A DNA stretch of 64,000 bases from Streptomyces sp. NBC_00370 (GTDB lineage: Bacteria > Actinomycetota > Actinomycetes > Streptomycetales > Streptomycetaceae), in the NCBI RefSeq assembly GCF_036084755.1, contig NZ_CP107968.1, positions 2,982,501 to 3,046,500 of the forward strand, written 5' to 3'. Both the position numbers and the translations under genes were made by a program. The notes beneath the pieces were generated by a model. It did no database searches. It saw only the letters and a list, made by a program, of their open reading frames with translations, and was not told where the DNA came from. Shown here piece after piece: positions 10,497-20,945 of the stretch (within the stretch, counting starts at the first letter, position 1; each line of letters begins with the position of its first letter).

Positions 10497-10970
10497 GTGG
10501 CTCACATCACGGCACACCGTGCACACAGGCAACCCTCGTTCGGCGCTGGGGAGTTACGGAGCGGAGCCCGAACGCTGCCGCGCCGGCCCGAAGCGGCGGC
10601 CAGGGCCAGGAGCTGGGTGCGCGACGAGCTGCGCCACCACGACCTGCCGCAGGACGTACGGGACGACGCCGTACTGGTGATCTCCGAACTGGTCACCCAT
10701 GCCGTCCTGCACGCCACCGGCGCCACGGTCAGCTGTGAGGCCCGGGTACTGGCCGGCTGTGTGCATCTCGAAGTGCGCGACGGGGGCCAGGTCTCCGCCG
10801 GCGGACACGGACTCCTCCTGGTGGACCGGATCGCCGAGGCGTGCGGCGCCAGGCCGGCCAAGGACGGCGCGGGGCGCGCGGTCTGGGCGACACTCCCCTT
10901 CCGCCCCGCCGACTTCCGTACGCCGACGACTCCCCGGAGCAGGGGTACGCAGCCACGATGCGCGAGATGA
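10497..10970 (+). CDS. ATP-binding anti-sigma-factor-like protein (HATPase_c)
   Basis: About 157 residues from the GTG at 10497; a TTG at 10461 in the same frame is an alternative start, and neither has a strong ribosome-binding site. The fold is that of the serine-kinase/anti-sigma HATPase group: ARSWVRDELRHHDLP, then DDAVLVISELVTHAVLHAT, VHLEVRDGG, and GGHGLLLVDRIAEACG. The N-box normally reads SELVTNA, and here the Mg-coordinating Asn is replaced by His, so ATP binding may be altered. It is divergent from the WhiJ-like regulator, the typical position of AbaA-like partners. The next gene starts inside its 3' end (13-bp overlap). Confidence 0.82.
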   Translation: MAHITAHRAHRQPSFGAGELRSGARTLPRRPEAAARARSWVRDELRHHDLPQDVRDDAVLVISELVTHAVLHATGATVSCEARVLAGCVHLEVRDGGQVSAGGHGLLLVDRIAEACGARPAKDGAGRAVWATLPFRPADFRTPTTPRSRGTQPRCAR

Positions 10971-11524
10971 CGGGGACCGGGGCAGCCGAGGAGCAGGAAA
11001 GACAGGCCCTCGCTCAGGCCCTCGCCGCCGAGTTGCTGCGCCGCGCCGCCGAGGACAACAGCGCCACGGCCGAGGCGCAGCGGCTGCCCGCGACCCATCT
11101 GCGCAGGGCGCTCGCCCGGTGCAGGGCCGAGAACGCGGAGGCGCTGCGCTCCGTCGTCACGGCGCACGGCTGGCCGACGGCGGCGCTGGTGGGGGCCGAC
11201 GCCTCGACGGCGGCCCTGATGATCCTGCTGCACTCCGACGATCTCGCGTTCCAGCTCACCTGCCGCGATCTGATCGCCGAAGCCGTGGAGGCGGGGCTCT
11301 GCTCGCCGATCCACGGCGCCTATGCCGCCGACCACTGCGCGGTCGCGCTGGGCAGGCCGCAGTCGTACGGGACCCGTTACACCCCGCTGGGCCGGCCGTA
11401 TCCGCTGCTGGACCCGGAAGGTGTCGACGACAGGCGCCTGGCGGTCGGGCTGCGGACGATGGCGGCGGAGCAGCGGGCGCTGACCGAGATCCGGCTGCGC
11501 CAGTCGAACCGCGCGTCGGCCTGA
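10958..11524 (+). CDS. DUF6624-like conserved protein
   Basis: A 188-residue soluble protein starting at the ATG at 10958 (MREMTGTG), 13 bp inside the preceding gene; an ATG at 10967 is nearly as good. The helical N-terminal half leads to VVTAHGWPTAALVGADASTA, then ALMILLHSDDLAFQLTCRDL, AAVEAGL-type helix, AYAADHCAVALGRPQSYGTR and TPLGRPYPLLDP, which is the DUF6624 pattern. No catalytic function is established for the family. The overlap places it in the same transcription unit as the anti-sigma-like ATPase. Confidence 0.72.
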   Translation: MREMTGTGAAEEQERQALAQALAAELLRRAAEDNSATAEAQRLPATHLRRALARCRAENAEALRSVVTAHGWPTAALVGADASTAALMILLHSDDLAFQLTCRDLIAEAVEAGLCSPIHGAYAADHCAVALGRPQSYGTRYTPLGRPYPLLDPEGVDDRRLAVGLRTMAAEQRALTEIRLRQSNRASA

Positions 11525-11540: not shown

Positions 11541-12005
11541 TCAGACAGCCGCAGCGACCAGGAGGGCGAAGGCGGCGACGGCCAGCAGCGTACGGACGAG
11601 ATGGAAGCGGTTCCAGCGCGTCTCGAACGCGGCGCGTGTCTCGCCGTCGGAGCGGCCGGCCGGTGACCCCGCGGCCAGCGCGTTGTTCAGCGGTACGTTG
11701 CCGGCGACCGTGACCAGGTGGTTGAGGACGGCGCACACCAGCCCGGCGAGTACCAGCCACCGCTGGGTGTCCGTACGCCCGTCGACCGGTACGAACAGGG
11801 CGGCGGCCGGGAACGCCACCTCGGCGAGGAACACGAGAAGGAAGACCGGGCGCGGTACGTATTCGTTGATCCTGCGCGCGGTCACGACGAACTGTTCGTC
11901 GGTCAGCCGGGCCAACGCGGGCATGATGCCGGTCAGGAAGATCAGCATCATGCCCGCATACAGTCCGGTGGACATCACGGCGAGCGCGATCAGCAGGGTG
12001 GCCAT
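11541..12005 (-). CDS. DUF1772-type integral membrane protein
   Basis: About 154 residues with four predicted membrane helices: LLIALAVMSTGLYAGMMLIF, PVFLLVFLAEVAFPAAALFV, WLVLAGLVCAVLNHLVTVAG and the C-terminal TLLAVAAFALLVAAAV. The NVPLNNALA segment followed by TRWNRFHLVRTLLA is the DUF1772/anthrone-oxygenase-like signature. The start at 12005 (MATLLIAL) is the best fit to a membrane N-terminus, but the ribosome-binding site is poor and ATGs at 12014 and 12017 are possible. It is convergent with the DUF6624 gene and stands alone. The function is unknown. Confidence 0.75.
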   Translation of the reverse strand: MATLLIALAVMSTGLYAGMMLIFLTGIMPALARLTDEQFVVTARRINEYVPRPVFLLVFLAEVAFPAAALFVPVDGRTDTQRWLVLAGLVCAVLNHLVTVAGNVPLNNALAAGSPAGRSDGETRAAFETRWNRFHLVRTLLAVAAFALLVAAAV

Positions 12006-12176
12006 GGCGCACATCATCGCCCATGGCCGGGCGGGGCTGCCGGGAAATATCGCCCCTCGGGTCCGCACGGGTTTGGCAAGGAGTCGCCACTCGCTGAACT
12101 GGGTCTTGTCACGGAATGCGATCGTGTGAGTACATGGAGTGGCGCGGCTTCGAGGGGACGACGGGGGTGGTCAGCC

Positions 12177-12951: not shown

Positions 12952-13806
12952 CTACGAAACGATGTCCTTGCGGGCGAAGCCCCGGAAGGCCAGCGCGAAC
13001 AGCACCAGCGCATAGGCGACGGAGACAGCCGCGCCCTTCGCCATGCCGGTCCGTTCCAGTTGCGGCTGGAGCGCGTCCACCCAGGCGAACTGCCAGTGCG
13101 CGGGCAGGAAGTCACGCCAGGAGCCGAGTGCGGTCACGGCGTCCAGCACATTGCCGATGATCGTGAGTCCGACCGCGCCGCCGACCGCGCCGAGCGGAGC
13201 GTCGGTCTTGGTGGACAGCCAGAACGCCAGTCCGGCGGTGACCAGTTGGGAGACGAAGATGAAGGCGACGACGAGCGCCAGCCGTGGCACGGTGTCGCCG
13301 GCGGCCAGGGAGCCACCGGTCGGCAGCTCCAGCGGACCCCAGCCGTAGGCGGCCGTCCCGGCCGCCAGGGCGACCAGCGGCAGCAGCACCATCGCCGCCG
13401 CACTCATCAGGAGCGCGACCGCCAGCTTGCTCCCGAGCAGCCGGGCGCGCGGCACGGGCGCGGCCAGGAGATAGCGCAGCGAGGACCAGCTCGCCTCGGA
13501 GGCCACCGTGTCCCCGCAGAACAGCGCGACGGGCACCACCAGCAGAAAACCGGCCGACACGAAGAGGGAGGTGGCGGCGAAGTTGGCGCCGGAAGCGGTC
13601 GCCGTGTCCATCAGCGTCACGCGTCCGTTCGCCCCGCCGGGGGTGCCGCCGACGGCGAAAGCGACGATCAGCACGAAGGGCAGGACGGCGAGCACGATCC
13701 CCATGGCCAGGGTCCGCCGGCGCTTCAACTGCCGCTTCAGCTCGACCCGGAGCGGCAGGGTGTGCCGGGCGCGGTAGCCGGGGGCGGAGTCGGTCAGCAC
13801 GCTCAT
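12952..13806 (-). CDS. ABC-2 type transporter permease
   Basis: A 284-residue membrane protein with six hydrophobic segments, starting with TLAMGIVLAVLPFVLIVAFAV and ending with VAYALVLFALAFRGFARKDI. The N-terminal arrangement (HTLPLRVELKRQLKRRR, then helix 1 and a long outer loop) is typical of ABC-2 permeases of NatB/YhaP type. Its GTG or ATG at 13806 overlaps the preceding ATPase-fusion gene by 4 bp, so it is the obvious membrane partner of that ATPase domain. The substrate is unknown. Confidence 0.88.
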   Translation of the reverse strand: MSVLTDSAPGYRARHTLPLRVELKRQLKRRRTLAMGIVLAVLPFVLIVAFAVGGTPGGANGRVTLMDTATASGANFAATSLFVSAGFLLVVPVALFCGDTVASEASWSSLRYLLAAPVPRARLLGSKLAVALLMSAAAMVLLPLVALAAGTAAYGWGPLELPTGGSLAAGDTVPRLALVVAFIFVSQLVTAGLAFWLSTKTDAPLGAVGGAVGLTIIGNVLDAVTALGSWRDFLPAHWQFAWVDALQPQLERTGMAKGAAVSVAYALVLFALAFRGFARKDIVS

Positions 13807-16439
13807 GCGGAGCCTCCGGAGATCAGGGTGAGGAAAGCGTCCTCCAGGCGGCGGTGGGGTCCGACCCCGGTGATCGCGACATCCAGCCGGACCAGCTCGG
13901 TCACCAGGCTGTTGGTGGAAGCGCCTTCCAGCCGTACGAGCACCCCGTCGTCCGTGCGGACGGCGGAGCCGATCCCGGGCAGCGCGGCGATCTTCTCCAC
14001 GACCGGTTCGGGCACCTCGCCTTCGGTGGTGACGAGCAGGGTGTCGCCGGAGCCGACGATCTCGGCGACCGGGCCGGTCTGGACGAGTTGGCCCCGGTGC
14101 ATGACCACCAGATGTGTACAGGTCTGTTCGACCTCGGAGAGGAGGTGGCTGGAGACGATGACCGTGCGTCCTGCGGCCGCGTAGCGGATCATCACGTCCC
14201 GCATCTCGCGGATCTGCGGCGGGTCGAGACCGTTGGTCGGCTCGTCCAGGATCAGCAGATCGGGCATACCGAGCATCGCCTGGGCGATGGCGAGCCGCTG
14301 CCGCATGCCCTGCGAGTAGGTGCGGACGGCGCGGGCGAGCGCGTCGCCGAGACCGGCGATCTCCAGCGCCTCGTCCAGCTGGGAGTCCTCGGGGGGACGG
14401 CCGGTCGCGGCCCAGTACAGCTCCAGATTGGCCCGCCCCGACAGATGCGGCAGGAAGCCCGCGCCTTCGACGAACGAACCGACCCGCGACAGCACGGGAG
14501 CACCCGGCCGGATCGCCTGGCCGAAGACCCGGATCTCCCCCTCGTCGGGGGTGATCAGTCCCATCAGCATGCGCAGCGTGGTGGTCTTGCCCGCGCCGTT
14601 CGGCCCGAGCAGTCCCAGCACCTGCCCCTTCTCCACCCGGAAGGAGAGATCACGAACGGCATACCGGTCGGCGGACTTGGCGTAGCGCTTGGCGAGATCG
14701 GTGATCTGCAGCGGTACGCCGGCGAGCGCCGGGTCGGGCGGCGGGGTCGCGCCCCGGCGCCGGGCGGTCAGCAGCAGCGCGGTCGCGATCAGCAGCCCGG
14801 CCGCCGGGAGTCCCCAGACCCACCAGGGCACCGTGGCCGCCCCGGTGGTCAGGGCGGGGACGGTCGGCACGGCCAGGGGGCCGTCCACGGAGACGCGGTA
14901 GCCGGCAGGGGCGGTCGGTGAGGCGTAGGCGAGGTCGGTGGCGGCGAAGACGACCCGCAGCCGGTGACCTGCCTGCACCTGGCGGTCGATGGCGGGCATC
15001 GTCACCGTGACCGTCCGGCCCTGCCGGGCGTCCTCGATCCGCAGGGGGGTGACGAGTTGGGAGGGCAGCACCTGCTGTGTGCCGTCGGGGCCGACGTCGT
15101 AGACCTTGCCGAAGAGCACCGCGTCGCCGTTCGCGGTGACCGTGGCCCGGACGGTGGGTGAGCCGGTGATCCGCAGCGAGTGTGCGAAAGGAGGTGAGTC
15201 GAAGTGGGCGAACTGGCCCGGGAAGTCCAGCGACAGACCGAGTCCCGCGCTCGACAGCTGGGACAGACCGCCGCCGAGGCCGCCGAGGCCCGGCACGGAG
15301 GAGATGGCGGGCGGGCTGCCGCCCGCCGGGTTCTGGACGGACTGCGCGCCGCCGCTGAGCGGCACGGACACAGTCCCGCCGCCAAGCCCCGGGTAGTGGT
15401 CGGCGCTGGCGCCGCGCAGCAGGGTCTGGCCGTCGGTGGAGTCGACGCCGCCGGAGCGGCTGACCCGGAAGGCGGGCCCGGTGTCGGCGCCCGCGTCGTC
15501 CTTGAGATAGCGGTCGAACCAGGAGCTGATCCGGCCCTCGATCCGGTTCGCCTCCAGATCCCCGCCGTCGTGGCCGCCCGCGATCCAGTCGACGTCGACG
15601 GGGGCACCGTTGGCACTGATCGTCTTCGCCATGGTGTCGGCCTGGCCGAGCGGGAAGAGCGAGTCGGTCTGGCCCTGGACGATCAGCGCGGGCACGTCGA
15701 TCCGGTCGCCGATCGCGGAGGGGCTGCGGGTGGCGAGCAGTTGACGCGCCGCCGCGTCCGGTTTCCCGGAGACGGCGACCCGCTGGTACATGTCGCAGAG
15801 CTGCTTCTCGAAGGTCGAGCACCCACCGCCGGTGGAGAAGAAGATCCCGGCCCAGAGCTTCTTGAACACCCCGTCGGGCATCAGCGCGTCGGCGAGATTC
15901 CAGTAGGTGATCTCGGGGGCGATGGCGTCGACCCGCTTGTCGTAGCCGGCGGCGAGCAGCGAGATGGCGCCCCCGTACGATCCGCCGGTGACGCCGACGC
16001 GCGGGTCGCCCGCCTTGTCGAGCCGTACCTCGGGGCGCTTCGCCAGCCAGTCGATCAGCCGGGAGACGTCCTTGACCTCGTAGGCGGGGTCGTTGAGCCC
16101 GATCTTCCCGGTGGACCTGCCGAAGCCGCGGGCCGACCAGGTCAGCACGGCGTAGCCGTCGCGGGCCAGCTTCTCGGCCTGGCCGCGTACGTCGTCCTTG
16201 CTGCCGCCGAAGCCGTGCCCGATCAGCACGGCCGGCCTGCGTCCGCTGCCCGCCGTGAAGTACGACGTGTCGATCCGCGCCCCGGGCATCCGCATCACCT
16301 GGTCCTGGCGGTGCACGGTGGGCGCGCCGTCCGAGGCGACGGCGGTCCAGGTGCCCGCGCCGACGAGTACGGCGGCTGCGGCGAGCGCGGCGAGCCATCG
16401 CGCGCGCAGCCCGAGCCGACGGGGGGTGGGGATGTCCAT
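13803..16439 (-). CDS. S15/CocE-like hydrolase fused to an ABC transporter ATP-binding domain
   Basis: An 878-residue two-part protein. Residues about 14-36 form a signal-anchor (WLAALAAAAVLVGAGTWTAV). Residues about 45-520 are an alpha/beta hydrolase of the X-Pro dipeptidyl-peptidase/CocE type, with nucleophile GGSYGG (Ser154), acid in VQGQTDS (Asp259), base in AGGHDGG (His290) and a jelly-roll domain. A second membrane helix (about 538-557, WWVWGLPAAGLLIATALLL) returns the chain to the cytoplasm. The rest is a complete ABC ATPase: GPNGAGKTT (612-620), YSQGMRQRLAIAQ, and LLILDEPTNGLD. The predicted topology puts the hydrolase outside and the ATPase inside, partnered by the overlapping ABC-2 permease. 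Every key residue of both enzymes is intact, and no frameshift or gene junction is visible. Confidence 0.87.
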   Translation of the reverse strand: MDIPTPRRLGLRARWLAALAAAAVLVGAGTWTAVASDGAPTVHRQDQVMRMPGARIDTSYFTAGSGRRPAVLIGHGFGGSKDDVRGQAEKLARDGYAVLTWSARGFGRSTGKIGLNDPAYEVKDVSRLIDWLAKRPEVRLDKAGDPRVGVTGGSYGGAISLLAAGYDKRVDAIAPEITYWNLADALMPDGVFKKLWAGIFFSTGGGCSTFEKQLCDMYQRVAVSGKPDAAARQLLATRSPSAIGDRIDVPALIVQGQTDSLFPLGQADTMAKTISANGAPVDVDWIAGGHDGGDLEANRIEGRISSWFDRYLKDDAGADTGPAFRVSRSGGVDSTDGQTLLRGASADHYPGLGGGTVSVPLSGGAQSVQNPAGGSPPAISSVPGLGGLGGGLSQLSSAGLGLSLDFPGQFAHFDSPPFAHSLRITGSPTVRATVTANGDAVLFGKVYDVGPDGTQQVLPSQLVTPLRIEDARQGRTVTVTMPAIDRQVQAGHRLRVVFAATDLAYASPTAPAGYRVSVDGPLAVPTVPALTTGAATVPWWVWGLPAAGLLIATALLLTARRRGATPPPDPALAGVPLQITDLAKRYAKSADRYAVRDLSFRVEKGQVLGLLGPNGAGKTTTLRMLMGLITPDEGEIRVFGQAIRPGAPVLSRVGSFVEGAGFLPHLSGRANLELYWAATGRPPEDSQLDEALEIAGLGDALARAVRTYSQGMRQRLAIAQAMLGMPDLLILDEPTNGLDPPQIREMRDVMIRYAAAGRTVIVSSHLLSEVEQTCTHLVVMHRGQLVQTGPVAEIVGSGDTLLVTTEGEVPEPVVEKIAALPGIGSAVRTDDGVLVRLEGASTNSLVTELVRLDVAITGVGPHRRLEDAFLTLISGGSA

Positions 16440-16573: not shown

Positions 16574-18073
16574 TCAGTGGTTGCGGGGGAAGCCGAGGTC
16601 GACGCCGGCGGGGGCCTCGGACGGGTCGGGCCAGCGGGTCGTGACGACCTTGCCCCGGGTGTAGAAGTGCACGCCGTCGTTGCCGTAGATGTGGTGGTCG
16701 CCGAAGAGCGAGTCCTTCCAGCCACCGAAGGAGTGGTAGCCGACGGGCACCGGGATCGGCACGTTCACGCCGACCATGCCTGCCTCGACCTCCAGTTGGA
16801 AGCGGCGGGCGGCGCCGCCGTCGCGGGTGAAGATCGCGGTGCCGTTGCCGTAGGGCGAGGCGTTGACGAGGGCGATGCCCTCTTCGTAGGTCGCCGCGCG
16901 CAGCACGACCAGGACCGGGCCGAAGATCTCGTCGCGGTAGGCGTCCGAGTCGGTGGAGACCTTGTCGAGCAGGGAAAGCCCGATCCAGTGGCCGTCCTCG
17001 AACCCTTCGACGGTGTGGCCCGTGCCGTCCAGGACGACCTCGGCGCCCTGGGCGGCGGCGCCGGTGACGTACGAGGCGACCTTGTCGCGGTGGGCCTTGG
17101 TGATGAGCGGGCCCATCTCGGAGGCCGGGTCGGTGCCGGGGCCGATGGTGATCTTCTCGGCGCGTTCGCGGATCTTGGCGACGAGTTCGTCACCGATCGC
17201 GCCGACGGCGACGACGGCGGAGATCGCCATGCAGCGCTCCCCCGCCGAGCCGTACGCGGCGGAGACGGCGGCGTCGGCCGCCGCGTCGATGTCGGCGTCC
17301 GGCAGGACCAGCATGTGGTTCTTGGCGCCGCCGAGTGCCTGGACGCGCTTGCCGTTGGCGGAGGCGGTGGCGTGGATGTGGCGGGCGATCGGGGTGGAGC
17401 CGACGAAGGAGACGGCGGCCACGTCCGGGTGGGCGAGCAGTGCGTCCACGGCGACCTTGTCGCCGTGCAGCACGTTGAGCACACCGTCCGGCAGTCCGGC
17501 CTCGGAGGCCAGCTCCGCCAGCAGGTTGGCGGCGGACGGGTCCTTCTCGCTGGGCTTGAGTACGAAGGTGTTTCCGCAGGCGACGGCCAGCGGGAACATC
17601 CACATCGGCACCATGGCGGGGAAGTTGAAGGGGGTGATGCCGGCGACGACGCCCAGCGACTGGCGGATCGACGCCACGTCGACCCGGCTGGAGACCTGGG
17701 TGGACAGCTCGCCCTTGAGCTGGGTGGTGATCCCGCAGGCCAGTTCGACGATCTCAAGGCCGCGGGCGACCTCGCCGAGCGCGTCCGAGTGCACCTTGCC
17801 GTGCTCGGCCGTGATCAGCGCCGCGATCTCGTCACGGTGCTCGTCGAGCAGCGCGCGGTAGCGGAACAGCACGCTGGTGCGCGCGGAGAGGGACGAGGTG
17901 CCCCACGTCGCGTACGCGGCCTTCGCCGCCGCGACGGCGGCGTCCACCTCTTCCGTGGACGCCAGCGCCACCTGGGTGGTGACGGCGCCGGTCGCCGGGT
18001 CGGTGACGGGACCCCAGTTGCCCGAAGCACCCTCGACGGTCTTGCCACCGATCCAGTGGTTGACGCTCTTCAT
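16574..18073 (-). CDS. mmsA: Methylmalonate-semialdehyde dehydrogenase (CoA-acylating)
   Basis: A 499-residue aldehyde dehydrogenase-superfamily enzyme, the usual length for MmsA/IolA. It starts at the ATG at 18073 (MKSVNHWIGGKTVEG) with AAGGAG six bases upstream. The NAD-binding and active-site segments are ITPFNFPAMVPMWMFP, FVLKPSEKDPSAAN, SFVGSTPIARHIH and GSAGERCMAIS, where the Cys is the nucleophile. It converts malonate or methylmalonate semialdehyde plus CoA to acetyl- or propionyl-CoA, the last step of inositol catabolism (IolA) and part of valine catabolism. It is the last gene of the minus-strand iol operon, 11 bp after iolD, which favours the inositol role. Confidence 0.93.
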   Translation of the reverse strand: MKSVNHWIGGKTVEGASGNWGPVTDPATGAVTTQVALASTEEVDAAVAAAKAAYATWGTSSLSARTSVLFRYRALLDEHRDEIAALITAEHGKVHSDALGEVARGLEIVELACGITTQLKGELSTQVSSRVDVASIRQSLGVVAGITPFNFPAMVPMWMFPLAVACGNTFVLKPSEKDPSAANLLAELASEAGLPDGVLNVLHGDKVAVDALLAHPDVAAVSFVGSTPIARHIHATASANGKRVQALGGAKNHMLVLPDADIDAAADAAVSAAYGSAGERCMAISAVVAVGAIGDELVAKIRERAEKITIGPGTDPASEMGPLITKAHRDKVASYVTGAAAQGAEVVLDGTGHTVEGFEDGHWIGLSLLDKVSTDSDAYRDEIFGPVLVVLRAATYEEGIALVNASPYGNGTAIFTRDGGAARRFQLEVEAGMVGVNVPIPVPVGYHSFGGWKDSLFGDHHIYGNDGVHFYTRGKVVTTRWPDPSEAPAGVDLGFPRNH

Positions 18074-18084
18074 GCGTTGCTCCT

Positions 18085-20028
18085 TCACAGATGACGGCGC
18101 CGGGCTGCGACATGCCTGTCGTACACCTCGCGGGCCTCGACCGCCGCCGGGCGCGTCGCGGTCTCGGCCACGGGAACATCCCACCACGCCTGGGCCGGCG
18201 GCACCCCGGACACAGTGTCTGCCGTTTCGGTCTCCACATAGACACATGTGGGGCCGTCGGCCGCACGCGCTTCGGCGAGGGCTTCCCGCAGGTCGCGAAT
18301 GGTCTTGGCACGGATCACCCGCATCCCGAGGGACGCGGCGTTGGCCGCGAGATCCACCGGCAGCGGGGCCCCGGTGTACGTCCCGTCGTCGGCCCGGAAG
18401 CGGTAGGCGGTGCCGAAGGACTCGGCGCCGACCGAGGCGGACAGACCGCCGATGGAGGCGTAGCCGTGGTTCTGGATGATCACGACCTTCAGCGGCAGCC
18501 GCTCCTGGACGGCGGTCACGATCTCGGTCGGGTTCATCAGGTACGTGCCGTCGCCGACCAGCGCCCAGACGGGCCTGCCCGGCGCGGCGAGCTGGACGCC
18601 GATGGCCGCCGGAATCTCGTAACCCATGCAGGAGTAGCCGTACTCGACGTGGTACTGGTCGCGGGAACGGGTCCGCCACAGCTTGTGCAGATCGCCGGGG
18701 AGCGAGCCGGCCGCGTTGACGAGGATGTCCTCCTCGGTGACGAGTTCGTCGAGCACGCCGAGGATCTGCGACTGGGTGGGGCGCAGCAGGTCCTCGTCGG
18801 TGGCCAGCGCCGCGTCGACCCGTTCCTCCCACCACTCCTTGTCCTCGCTGTATTCGGCGACATAAGAGGCGTCGGCGGCGTAGGCGGTCTCGCCGAGCCC
18901 GGCGGTGAGCAGTTCCAGGGCCGTACGCGCGTCGGCGACGAGCGGGTGCGCGGCGAGCTTGTGCGCGTCGAAACTCGTCACGTTGACGTTGAGGAACCGG
19001 ACGGCCGGGTTGGCGAAGAGGGTGGCCGACGCGGTGGAGAAGTCCGACCAGCGGGTGCCGACGCCGATCACCAGGTCGGCGGTGCGGGCCAGTTCGTCGG
19101 CGGTGGCGGTGCCGGTGTGGCCGATGCCGCCGATGTCGCTCGGGTGGTCGTGGCGCAGCGCGCCCTTGCCCGCCTGGGTGGCGGCGACGGGGATGCCCGT
19201 CGCGTCGGCGAAAGCGGCGAGCGCGTCCTCGGCGGCGCTGTGGTGGACTCCGCCGCCGGCGACGAGCAGCGGGCGCCGGGACTGCCGTACGAGCGCGAGG
19301 GCCGCGTCCAGTTCGGCCGGGTCGGGCGCCTGGCGGCGGACCCGCCAGATCCGCTCGGCGAAGAACTCCTCCGGCCAGTCCCACGCCTCCGCCTGCACGT
19401 CCTGGGGCAGCGCGAGGGTGACGGCTCCGGTCTCGGCCGGGTCGCTGAGCACCCGCATCGCGGCGAGCGCCGCCGGGATCAGCGCCTCGGGCCGGGAGAT
19501 CCGGTCGAAGTAGCGGGAGACGGGCCGCAGCGCGTCGTTGACGGAGACGTCGCCCTGGGAGGGGTCTTCGAGCTGCTGGAGCACCGGCTCGGCGGGGCGG
19601 GTGGCGAAGGTGTCACCGGGCAGCAGCAGCACCGGCAGCCGGTTGATGGTGGCGAGGGCGGCGCCGGTGACGAGGTTGGTCGCGCCGGGGCCGATGGAGG
19701 TGGTCACGGCATGGGCGGAGAGGCGGTTGCTCTGCCGGGCGTAGCCGACGGCGGCATGGACCATCGCCTGTTCGTTGCGCCCCTGCACGTACCGCATGTC
19801 GGCGCCGGACTCGACGAGCGCCTGTCCGATGCCCGCCACGTTGCCGTGGCCGAAGATGCCCCAGGTGGCGTTGATCAGCCGCTGCCTGCGGCCGTCCCGC
19901 TCCGTGTACTGCCGGGAGAGGAAGGTGATCAGCGCCTGCGCGACGGTCAGGCGGCGGGTGCCGGTGCCCGGCACGTTGCCGTCCGCGCCCGGTGCGTCGC
20001 CGGTGCGCGGGCCGTTGGCGGTGGTCAT
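18085..20028 (-). CDS. iolD: 3D-(3,5/4)-trihydroxycyclohexane-1,2-dione acylhydrolase
   Basis: A 647-residue thiamin-diphosphate enzyme. It starts at the ATG at 20028, which overlaps the iolB stop as ATGA and has GGAGG upstream. It has the three-domain acetolactate-synthase fold: LINATWGIFGHGNVAGIGQA at the N-terminus, a central FAD-type domain, and the ThDP motif GDGTYLMNPTEIV near residue 480-490. IolD hydrolytically opens the ring of trihydroxycyclohexane-1,2-dione to give 5-deoxyglucuronate, the substrate of IolB. Presence of iolB, iolC and mmsA in the same operon separates it from acetolactate synthase paralogs. Confidence 0.93.
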   Translation of the reverse strand: MTTANGPRTGDAPGADGNVPGTGTRRLTVAQALITFLSRQYTERDGRRQRLINATWGIFGHGNVAGIGQALVESGADMRYVQGRNEQAMVHAAVGYARQSNRLSAHAVTTSIGPGATNLVTGAALATINRLPVLLLPGDTFATRPAEPVLQQLEDPSQGDVSVNDALRPVSRYFDRISRPEALIPAALAAMRVLSDPAETGAVTLALPQDVQAEAWDWPEEFFAERIWRVRRQAPDPAELDAALALVRQSRRPLLVAGGGVHHSAAEDALAAFADATGIPVAATQAGKGALRHDHPSDIGGIGHTGTATADELARTADLVIGVGTRWSDFSTASATLFANPAVRFLNVNVTSFDAHKLAAHPLVADARTALELLTAGLGETAYAADASYVAEYSEDKEWWEERVDAALATDEDLLRPTQSQILGVLDELVTEEDILVNAAGSLPGDLHKLWRTRSRDQYHVEYGYSCMGYEIPAAIGVQLAAPGRPVWALVGDGTYLMNPTEIVTAVQERLPLKVVIIQNHGYASIGGLSASVGAESFGTAYRFRADDGTYTGAPLPVDLAANAASLGMRVIRAKTIRDLREALAEARAADGPTCVYVETETADTVSGVPPAQAWWDVPVAETATRPAAVEAREVYDRHVAARRRHL

Positions 20029-20945
20029 GACGTTGCCTCCGCTGGGTTGGGCCGCGGCGCCGTGTACAGCGGCAGCCGCGGGTCGACGTCCTGGCCGGGC
20101 CAGGTGTCCCGGATCCAGCCGTGGTCGGGGTGGTCGCTGATCAGCCACTCCCTGGTCTCGCCGGGACCTGCCATCACGTTCAGGTAGTACATGTCGTGTC
20201 CCGGCGCCGCGACGGACGGGCCGTGCCAGCCGTCCGGGATGAGCACCGTGTCACCGCTGCGGACCTCGGCCAGTACGTCACTGCCGCCGGGCCGCGAGGG
20301 TGAGACACGGTGGTAGCCGAGCGCGGATCCGGCGCCGTGCGCGCCCGGGTCGATCTCGAAGTAGTAGATCTCCTCCAGCACCGACTCGGCGCCGGGGAGC
20401 GGTTCGTCGTGCTTGTGCGGCGGGTACGACGACCAGTTGCCGCCGGGGGTCAGCACCTCGACGGCGATGAGCCGGTCGCACGCGAAGACGCCGGCGGCCG
20501 CGAAGTTGTTGACCTGGCGGGAGCAGCCGCCCGCGCCGCGCAGTTCGACCGGAACCTCCGATGCGGGGCCGTAGCGAGCGGGGAGTCGTCGCTCGCACTT
20601 CGCTCCTGCCAGGGCGAAGCGGCCTCCCGCATCGGAGGAGATCTGGGCATCGGCGTCGCGCGGTACGTAGCCGAAGTCCGTGACGCCGCTGAACACGCTT
20701 TCTCTGCCCAGCAGTTCCATGACCTCACCCTCGGTACGCACCGTACAACCGCCGTTCAGCGGAATGACGATCCATTCGCTGTCTCCGGTGGCGAACGCGT
20801 GGGTGGCGCCGGGCGCGAGCTCGACGACGCGCAGCGCGCTGTGGGTCCAGCCGGCCCGCTCGGGGCCGATGTCGAGCGCGTACGGCCCGGCCGCCGCGCT
20901 GCCCGCCGGCACGTACAGCCGCGCCTTGTCCTGCTCGGTCGTCAT
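20025..20945 (-). CDS. iolB: 5-deoxy-glucuronate isomerase
   Basis: A 306-residue bicupin. It starts at 20945 (MTTEQDKARLYVPAGS). The metal-site region is YPPHKHDEPL followed by LEEIYYFEIDP, and NLNGG-type and DGWHGPSVAAPGHDMYYLN segments match IolB. It isomerises 5-deoxy-D-glucuronate to 5-dehydro-2-deoxy-D-gluconate. Its end overlaps iolD by 4 bp, so the two are co-translated. The 47-bp gap upstream separates it from the aldolase-like gene but shows no terminator. Confidence 0.93.
   Translation of the reverse strand: MTTEQDKARLYVPAGSAAAGPYALDIGPERAGWTHSALRVVELAPGATHAFATGDSEWIVIPLNGGCTVRTEGEVMELLGRESVFSGVTDFGYVPRDADAQISSDAGGRFALAGAKCERRLPARYGPASEVPVELRGAGGCSRQVNNFAAAGVFACDRLIAVEVLTPGGNWSSYPPHKHDEPLPGAESVLEEIYYFEIDPGAHGAGSALGYHRVSPSRPGGSDVLAEVRSGDTVLIPDGWHGPSVAAPGHDMYYLNVMAGPGETREWLISDHPDHGWIRDTWPGQDVDPRLPLYTAPRPNPAEATS

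Follow-up and report, generated by a model that had tools for sequence, protein, structure and literature searches.

Why an enzyme that appears to belong outside the cell should be made as one polypeptide with the cytoplasmic motor of a transporter is the question raised by a locus of Streptomyces sp. NBC_00370, which lies within a window of 64,000 nucleotides (contig NZ_CP107968.1, positions 2,982,501 to 3,046,500; the whole stretch of DNA analysed here). A single intact reading frame of 878 codons occupies positions 13803-16439 of the minus strand of this window, from the ATG at 16439 to the stop codon ending at 13803, and encodes a membrane segment, then a serine hydrolase of the S15/CocE type and, after another membrane helix, a complete ATPase of the adenosine triphosphate (ATP)-binding cassette (ABC) type; an ABC-2 permease gene (12952-13806) overlaps its end by 4 bases. 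The first-pass annotation of the window had given the frame exactly, without its strand, and the signal anchor, membrane helix, full ABC ATPase and overlapping permease gene that it had placed there were all recovered. The fusion is real and conserved, not an accident of assembly, and the architecture described, with its domains, their order and the permease partner, is regarded as almost certain.

The identity of the parts was established by means of Pfam, in which the fused protein matched Peptidase_S15 at residues 66-259 (68.4 bits, cut-off 23), PepX_C at residues 412-510 (36.3 bits, cut-off 22.5) and ABC_tran at residues 596-736 (110.3 bits, cut-off 25). Its membership of the S15/CocE group is indicated by the first two matches, both over the curated cut-offs, and by the presence of a Ser-Asp-His triad (Ser154, Asp259 and His290) whose nucleophile lies in the motif G-x-S-Y-x-G, as is usual in this group. 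The ATPase presented the Walker A motif at residues 612-620, Tyr708-Ser709-x-Gly711-Met712, Asp732-Glu733 and His765, and these complete motifs, together with a cognate permease that matched ABC2_membrane_2 at 42.1 bits (cut-off 27.2), place the pair among ABC-2 type systems. The plus strand across 13803-16439 contains stops in the same register, and it also has long open frames, which are usual at high G+C. The features of the fused gene and its partner are listed below.

13803..16439, minus strand: fused gene (878 aa) for the membrane segment, the S15/CocE-type hydrolase with its PepX_C-like domain, the linker helix and the ABC ATPase, from the frame and Pfam
16338..16394, minus strand: signal anchor, a hydrophobic stretch near the N-terminus (residues 16-34) with a mean hydropathy of 1.86 and a net charge of +4 ahead of it
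15480..16310, minus strand: alpha/beta hydrolase domain, about residues 44-320, from Pfam, the ectodomain model and fold matches
15978..15980, minus strand: codon of the nucleophile Ser154 (GGSYGG), invariant in 34/34 relatives
15663..15665, minus strand: codon of the triad Asp259, invariant in 34/34
15570..15572, minus strand: codon of the triad His290, invariant in 34/34
14859..15221, minus strand: PepX_C-like beta domain, about residues 407-527 (Pfam PF08530 at 412-510)
14763..14819, minus strand: second membrane (linker) helix of hydropathy 1.88 (residues 541-559), with ARRRG and a net charge of +2 behind it; the same feature in 56/57 fused frames
14046..14711, minus strand: ABC ATPase (nucleotide-binding) domain, about residues 577-798 (ABC_tran, 110.3 bits)
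14580..14606, minus strand: Walker A, residues 612-620 (GPNGAGKTT), from the alignment of 34 relatives
13813..13817, minus strand: GGAGG ahead of the permease gene, likely its ribosome-binding site, read from the sequence
13803..13806, minus strand: ATGA, stop of the fused gene overlapping the permease start by 4 bases, from both frames
12952..13806, minus strand: ABC-2 permease gene, 284 aa; ABC2_membrane_2 and ABC2_membrane_4 above cut-off; conserved partner

A search for the same domain order across actinobacteria, which the first-pass annotation had proposed, found it in 17 of the 46 families of the class Actinomycetes and in eight genomes of other classes. In the whole-protein search of 296 genomes of the class, the fused hydrolase-ATPase frame was present in at least 73, as counted from the list of matches, and the DNA of many of these was checked and revealed a single frame immediately followed by the permease. 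The 73 include a genome whose frame ends at a contig end (G280) and two with damaged hydrolases: in G232 (L042:3859-7028, minus strand) the hydrolase is broken over two overlapping frames, by a sequencing error or in a broken gene, and in G252 (L028 and L086) the fused frame is only 700 aa long, the N-terminal part of the hydrolase being absent. Within Streptomyces, the window's own genome included, 26 of 28 genomes carried the fusion (G089 and G293 were without it), and it was present even in genomes of 1.3-1.4 Mb (G025, G062 and G286). The sample of 198 genomes of the phylum contained at least 15 with the fusion, namely the eight from other classes (L195-L200, L202 and L203) and seven of the same genus; long frames of 966 and 863 aa, outside the 15 counted, were also found in G440 and G336. 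When named genomes were scanned with the hydrolase half, the best 80 loci (78 from Streptomyces, one from Kitasatospora and one from an 'Actinobacteria bacterium') presented a fused frame followed by a same-strand permease in 79 cases, with the first aligned residue of the permease at most 129 bases past the fused stop, and the exception (L124) ended at a contig end.

The genome samples cover Actinomycetota, and only the plasmid collection reaches beyond that phylum. At least two plasmid records, from Tsukamurella and Nonomuraea, matched at least 80% of the query. In Tsukamurella tyrosinosolvens the pair is plasmid-borne with an identical 4-base overlap, and its members are labelled 'alpha/beta fold hydrolase' and 'ABC transporter permease', so that the record name hides the fusion in this, the one annotated relative examined. 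The phage collection yielded only a single weak match, with 25% identity across half of the hydrolase. Two genomes (G161 and G016) carried a second, diverged fused copy with its own permease (L035 and L036) beside an existing one. Nothing in the genome of strain NBC_00370 favours the idea that a sequencing or assembly error joined two genes; the damaged hydrolase frames of G232 and G252 might be taken to favour it, but their breaks do not fall at the hydrolase-ATPase junction. Because the joined frame is conserved, in 79 of the 80 best named assemblies and in at least 73 of the 296 class genomes, such an artefact is refuted, with a probability close to nil, and the same counts uphold the earlier impression that the layout was selected rather than accidental.

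Conservation was assessed in an alignment of 34 diverse fused proteins, in which the relatives were 40-76% identical to the window protein. Ser154, Asp259, His290, Cys207, Cys215 and the ATPase motifs were invariant in all 34, with Ala616 the sole variable residue of Walker A, and the intact triad and ABC motifs that had been noticed in the window alone were in this way confirmed among diverse relatives. At an E-value of 0.001, Peptidase_S15 matched the 34 proteins and PepX_C matched 33 of them. The ratio of nonsynonymous to synonymous substitution (dN/dS), obtained by a simple count in the manner of Nei and Gojobori against 50 Streptomyces-type relatives, had medians of 0.34 for the hydrolase domain and 0.11 for the ATPase, and of about 0.5 for both the PepX_C-like part and the stretch preceding it. 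Purifying selection acts on both active parts, and it is stronger on the ATPase.

The predicted topology was also conserved. Of 57 fused frames, 54 have a hydrophobic N-terminal segment; it was missed in the broken copy (L042), in a frame truncated at a contig end (L066) and in one just below the threshold (L087, 1.48 vs 1.5). The hydrophobic linker helix was present in 56 of the 57, the miss (L089) being probably a slip in domain bounds; net positive charge on the ATPase side of this helix was likewise observed in 56, and that side was more positive than the hydrolase side in 52. The N-termini of relatives may resemble signal peptides (L058) or carry a lipobox-like LGAC (L038), and several unfused hydrolase relatives look secreted. 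Because of these hydrophobic segments, the linker charge, the signal-like N-termini and the secreted-looking relatives, the hydrolase is very likely outside and the ATPase inside. The earlier reading had coupled hydrolysis outside to ATP-driven transport; its outside/inside topology is thus supported as a prediction from sequence, and the coupling is one of the readings weighed below. One unfused hydrolase relative (L201:3710-6670, in G444) runs on in the same chain for about 300 residues into repeats, presumably cell-wall-binding ones; if so, it looks like a second way of fastening this enzyme to the outside of the cell.

Homologues split into two genes, which the first-pass annotation had held to speak against the fusion, did not appear. 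Unfused relatives of the hydrolase were examined at 29 loci, several of which are short or end with their contig, and none had a matching ATPase and permease beside the hydrolase, as against 79 fused among the best 80 named loci. Three of these regions (L207, L210 and L212) contained other ABC genes within about 3 kb, scoring 62-121 bits vs 347-366 for the fused ones, and no such permease. An ATPase-permease pair without a hydrolase was found in G086 (L227); its candidacy as half of a split pair was rejected, the separate hydrolase of this genome (L251) falling among the unfused ones.

The history of the fusion was approached with trees, all of them quick ones. In the hydrolase tree, 53 fused and 26 unfused sequences were split by one branch with support 91 (both pieces of L042, L066, L221, L222 and L226 were left out), and in a larger set this support was 98, with one piece of the broken L042 also inside the fused side. 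In the ATPase tree, the 57 fused rows and L227 (58 rows) formed one side with support 99.9, L227 falling inside the fused clade in the free trees. A tree in which the 57 fused rows were constrained without L227 had a log-likelihood higher by 3.5 and was not rejected (approximately unbiased test, p-AU 0.68); L231, L003-L005, L029 and L034, the last two being duplicates, were omitted from it. L227 may represent a pre-fusion state or a loss. In G129, a related ATPase and permease occupied one 607-aa frame (L231:2063-3883); the first tree placed it inside the fused clade, on a very long branch. The simplest reading of these phylogenies would be that the two halves were joined once, early in Actinomycetota, and have been inherited together since.

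Regarding the enzyme, a model of the ectodomain (predicted local distance difference test, pLDDT, 80.1; predicted template modelling score, pTM, 0.82) was the only one relied on, the full-length AlphaFold model being poor (mean pLDDT 63.7). Its best fold match was the lipase PaL (PDB 8yzn/8yzo; Z 31.8, root-mean-square deviation 3.0, 430 aligned residues, 26% identity), followed by the cocaine esterase CocE (Z 25.4), a CocE/NonD hydrolase (25.0), X-Pro dipeptidyl aminopeptidase (24.2), an alpha-amino acid ester hydrolase (23.4) and another X-Pro peptidase (22.7). Foldseek also placed PaL first and CocE next, and sequence searches ranked PaL first as well. PaL, taken to be the menthyl-propionate lipase of Pseudomonas alcaligenes from the entry title and an excerpt of PMC9902596, corresponds to the hydrolase and the beta domain over the whole ectodomain, with the triad residues aligned to its own triad positions; it is, however, a free-standing lipase/esterase with no ABC ATPase on its chain. 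CocE, the alpha-amino acid ester hydrolases and X-Pro dipeptidyl aminopeptidase share the two-domain fold with the fused hydrolase, but CocE/S15 enzymes are not fused to an ATPase or a membrane helix, and their substrates probably differ. Because PaL and then CocE are the nearest solved structures, an esterase is a better guess than a peptidase on the strength of the model, activity not being readable from a fold.

Regarding the transporter half, the best curated (NCBIfam) matches of the ATPase were the DrrA and lantibiotic-protection export families, below the cut-offs of these subfamilies (169.9 of 312.45 and 171.2 of 309.75 bits), and its nearest solved chains were the ABCA group, 1vpl and NosF. 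The permease matched only ABC2_membrane_2 and ABC2_membrane_4 at an E-value of 0.01, with no match of the FtsX/MacB type. DrrAB-type and lantibiotic-protection ABC-2 exporters likewise have an ATPase and a separate ABC-2 permease in one operon, but they carry no hydrolase on the chain, and the ATPase studied here is far below their cut-offs. In the C39 peptidase-containing ABC transporters, the peptidase is cytoplasmic and the membrane domain lies on the same chain. They resemble the present system in having a hydrolytic enzyme and an exporter ATPase on one chain, whereas here the enzyme is predicted outside and is of S15 type, and the permease is a separate frame; no C39 match was among the families listed for the window protein. 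NosDFY and FtsEX are ABC machines with an extracytoplasmic functional partner, a likeness reinforced for NosDFY by the nearness of NosF; in both, that partner is a protein of its own, from outside the S15/CocE hydrolases. The closest printed precedent found is Q1D520 of Myxococcus xanthus (TC 3.A.1.145; PMC3924187), in which an ABC-2 permease and an M1 peptidase are fused. There, too, an enzyme is fused to one ABC-2 subunit, but it is a zinc M1 peptidase on the permease, whereas the present S15 hydrolase is on the ATPase chain, with the permease in its own frame of 284 aa. A DD-peptidase/ABC fusion of another family is listed in PMC2605481.

Across 57 loci, the permease was the only companion common to more than three families; the other shared neighbours reached at most three and look incidental. 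In the window, the genes upstream of the pair (16574-20945, minus strand) matched the Pfam families of aldehyde dehydrogenase, thiamine pyrophosphate (TPP) enzyme and KduI/IolB, and probably form an inositol-catabolism set. Since they are shared mainly within the genus, with one generic aldehyde dehydrogenase match in one family outside it, they say little on function. On the other side of the pair, frames at 11541-12068 (minus strand) and 10841-11524 (plus strand) matched Anthrone_oxy (PF08592) and DUF6624 (PF20329).

The reading to which we give somewhat better than an even chance is that of an ABC-2 exporter whose ATPase chains carry a surface enzyme, the cargo being exported and processed. 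The fused chain would cross the membrane twice (once where a signal peptide is cleaved), leaving the hydrolase outside and the ATPase inside, and two fused chains with two permeases would make up the transporter, with two hydrolase domains at its outer mouth. With less certainty, a small molecule, lipid or peptide with an ester or amide bond may be exported via the permease and cut on emergence, and the cut might mature the cargo, disarm it or make export irreversible. This reading is supported by an ATPase nearest to exporter-type families and by the permease as constant partner. The joined frame at so many loci, the invariant triad, Cys207/Cys215 and ATPase motifs, the purifying selection on both halves, the hydrophobic segments with the linker charge, the signal-like N-termini and the PaL/CocE fold speak for it as well. 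A more specific version, held only tentatively and at somewhat less than even chances, describes an enzyme and a motor in one transmembrane chain, in which a surface esterase would process the leaving cargo as an inside-out counterpart of the peptidase-containing ABC transporters; this chain would have become fixed a single time, early in Actinomycetota, and have persisted in genomes ranging from the large ones of Streptomyces to those of 1.3-1.4 Mb. Several observations weigh against the exporter: the conserved neighbours gave no hint of a substrate at the 57 loci, selection constrains the hydrolase less than it does the ATPase (0.34 vs 0.11), the pair in G086 suggests that ATPase and permease may work alone, the permease profile had no match among solved chains at an E-value of 0.1, and ABC-2 permeases are not all exporters.

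Mechanical control offers an account with no cargo at all, in which ATP turnover would reshape the membrane part and switch the outer hydrolase on or off, in the fashion in which FtsEX controls cell-wall hydrolases. A single membrane helix joining hydrolase to ATPase would be a short path for such a signal, and one of the solved ATPases nearest to this one, NosF, comes from an ABC complex that has a partner outside the cytoplasm; however, the permease belongs with ABC-2 families and not with the FtsX/MacB type, and the best matches of the ATPase are families that export drugs or protect against lantibiotics, so we consider this account unlikely. Somewhat more doubtful is simple tethering, in which an exporter and a surface esterase, both of an ordinary kind, would share a chain for anchoring and equal number, with no coupling between them. 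The 29 loci where hydrolase relatives occur unfused with no such ATPase adjoining, and the unfused ATPase-permease pair of G086, are what it would lead one to expect, but a single fusion has persisted in no fewer than 17 families of the class and also beyond it, in other classes of the phylum, and anchoring would presumably be available more cheaply. Uptake, in which the hydrolase would cut a nutrient outside and the ABC part import the product, seems very improbable: the Streptomyces pair does adjoin inositol-catabolism-like genes, also at other loci of the genus, but in the loci examined these are not shared outside it save for the aldehyde dehydrogenase match already mentioned, a binding protein is absent among the conserved neighbours, and the ATPase again sides with exporters.

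A limited search of open-licence PubMed Central papers found no description of a hydrolase on the ATPase chain. The components are ordinary, and it is their union on that chain that constitutes a variant without a description found in that literature. Taken as a whole, the system gives the impression of a transport machine of actinobacteria, and of Streptomyces above all, that is old, conserved and little studied, and because the fusion is so common in this genus, knock-outs and point mutants are directly possible there. If the two halves are coupled, a single polypeptide of this conserved ABC machine would consume ATP on the inner side of the membrane and carry out hydrolytic chemistry on the outer side.

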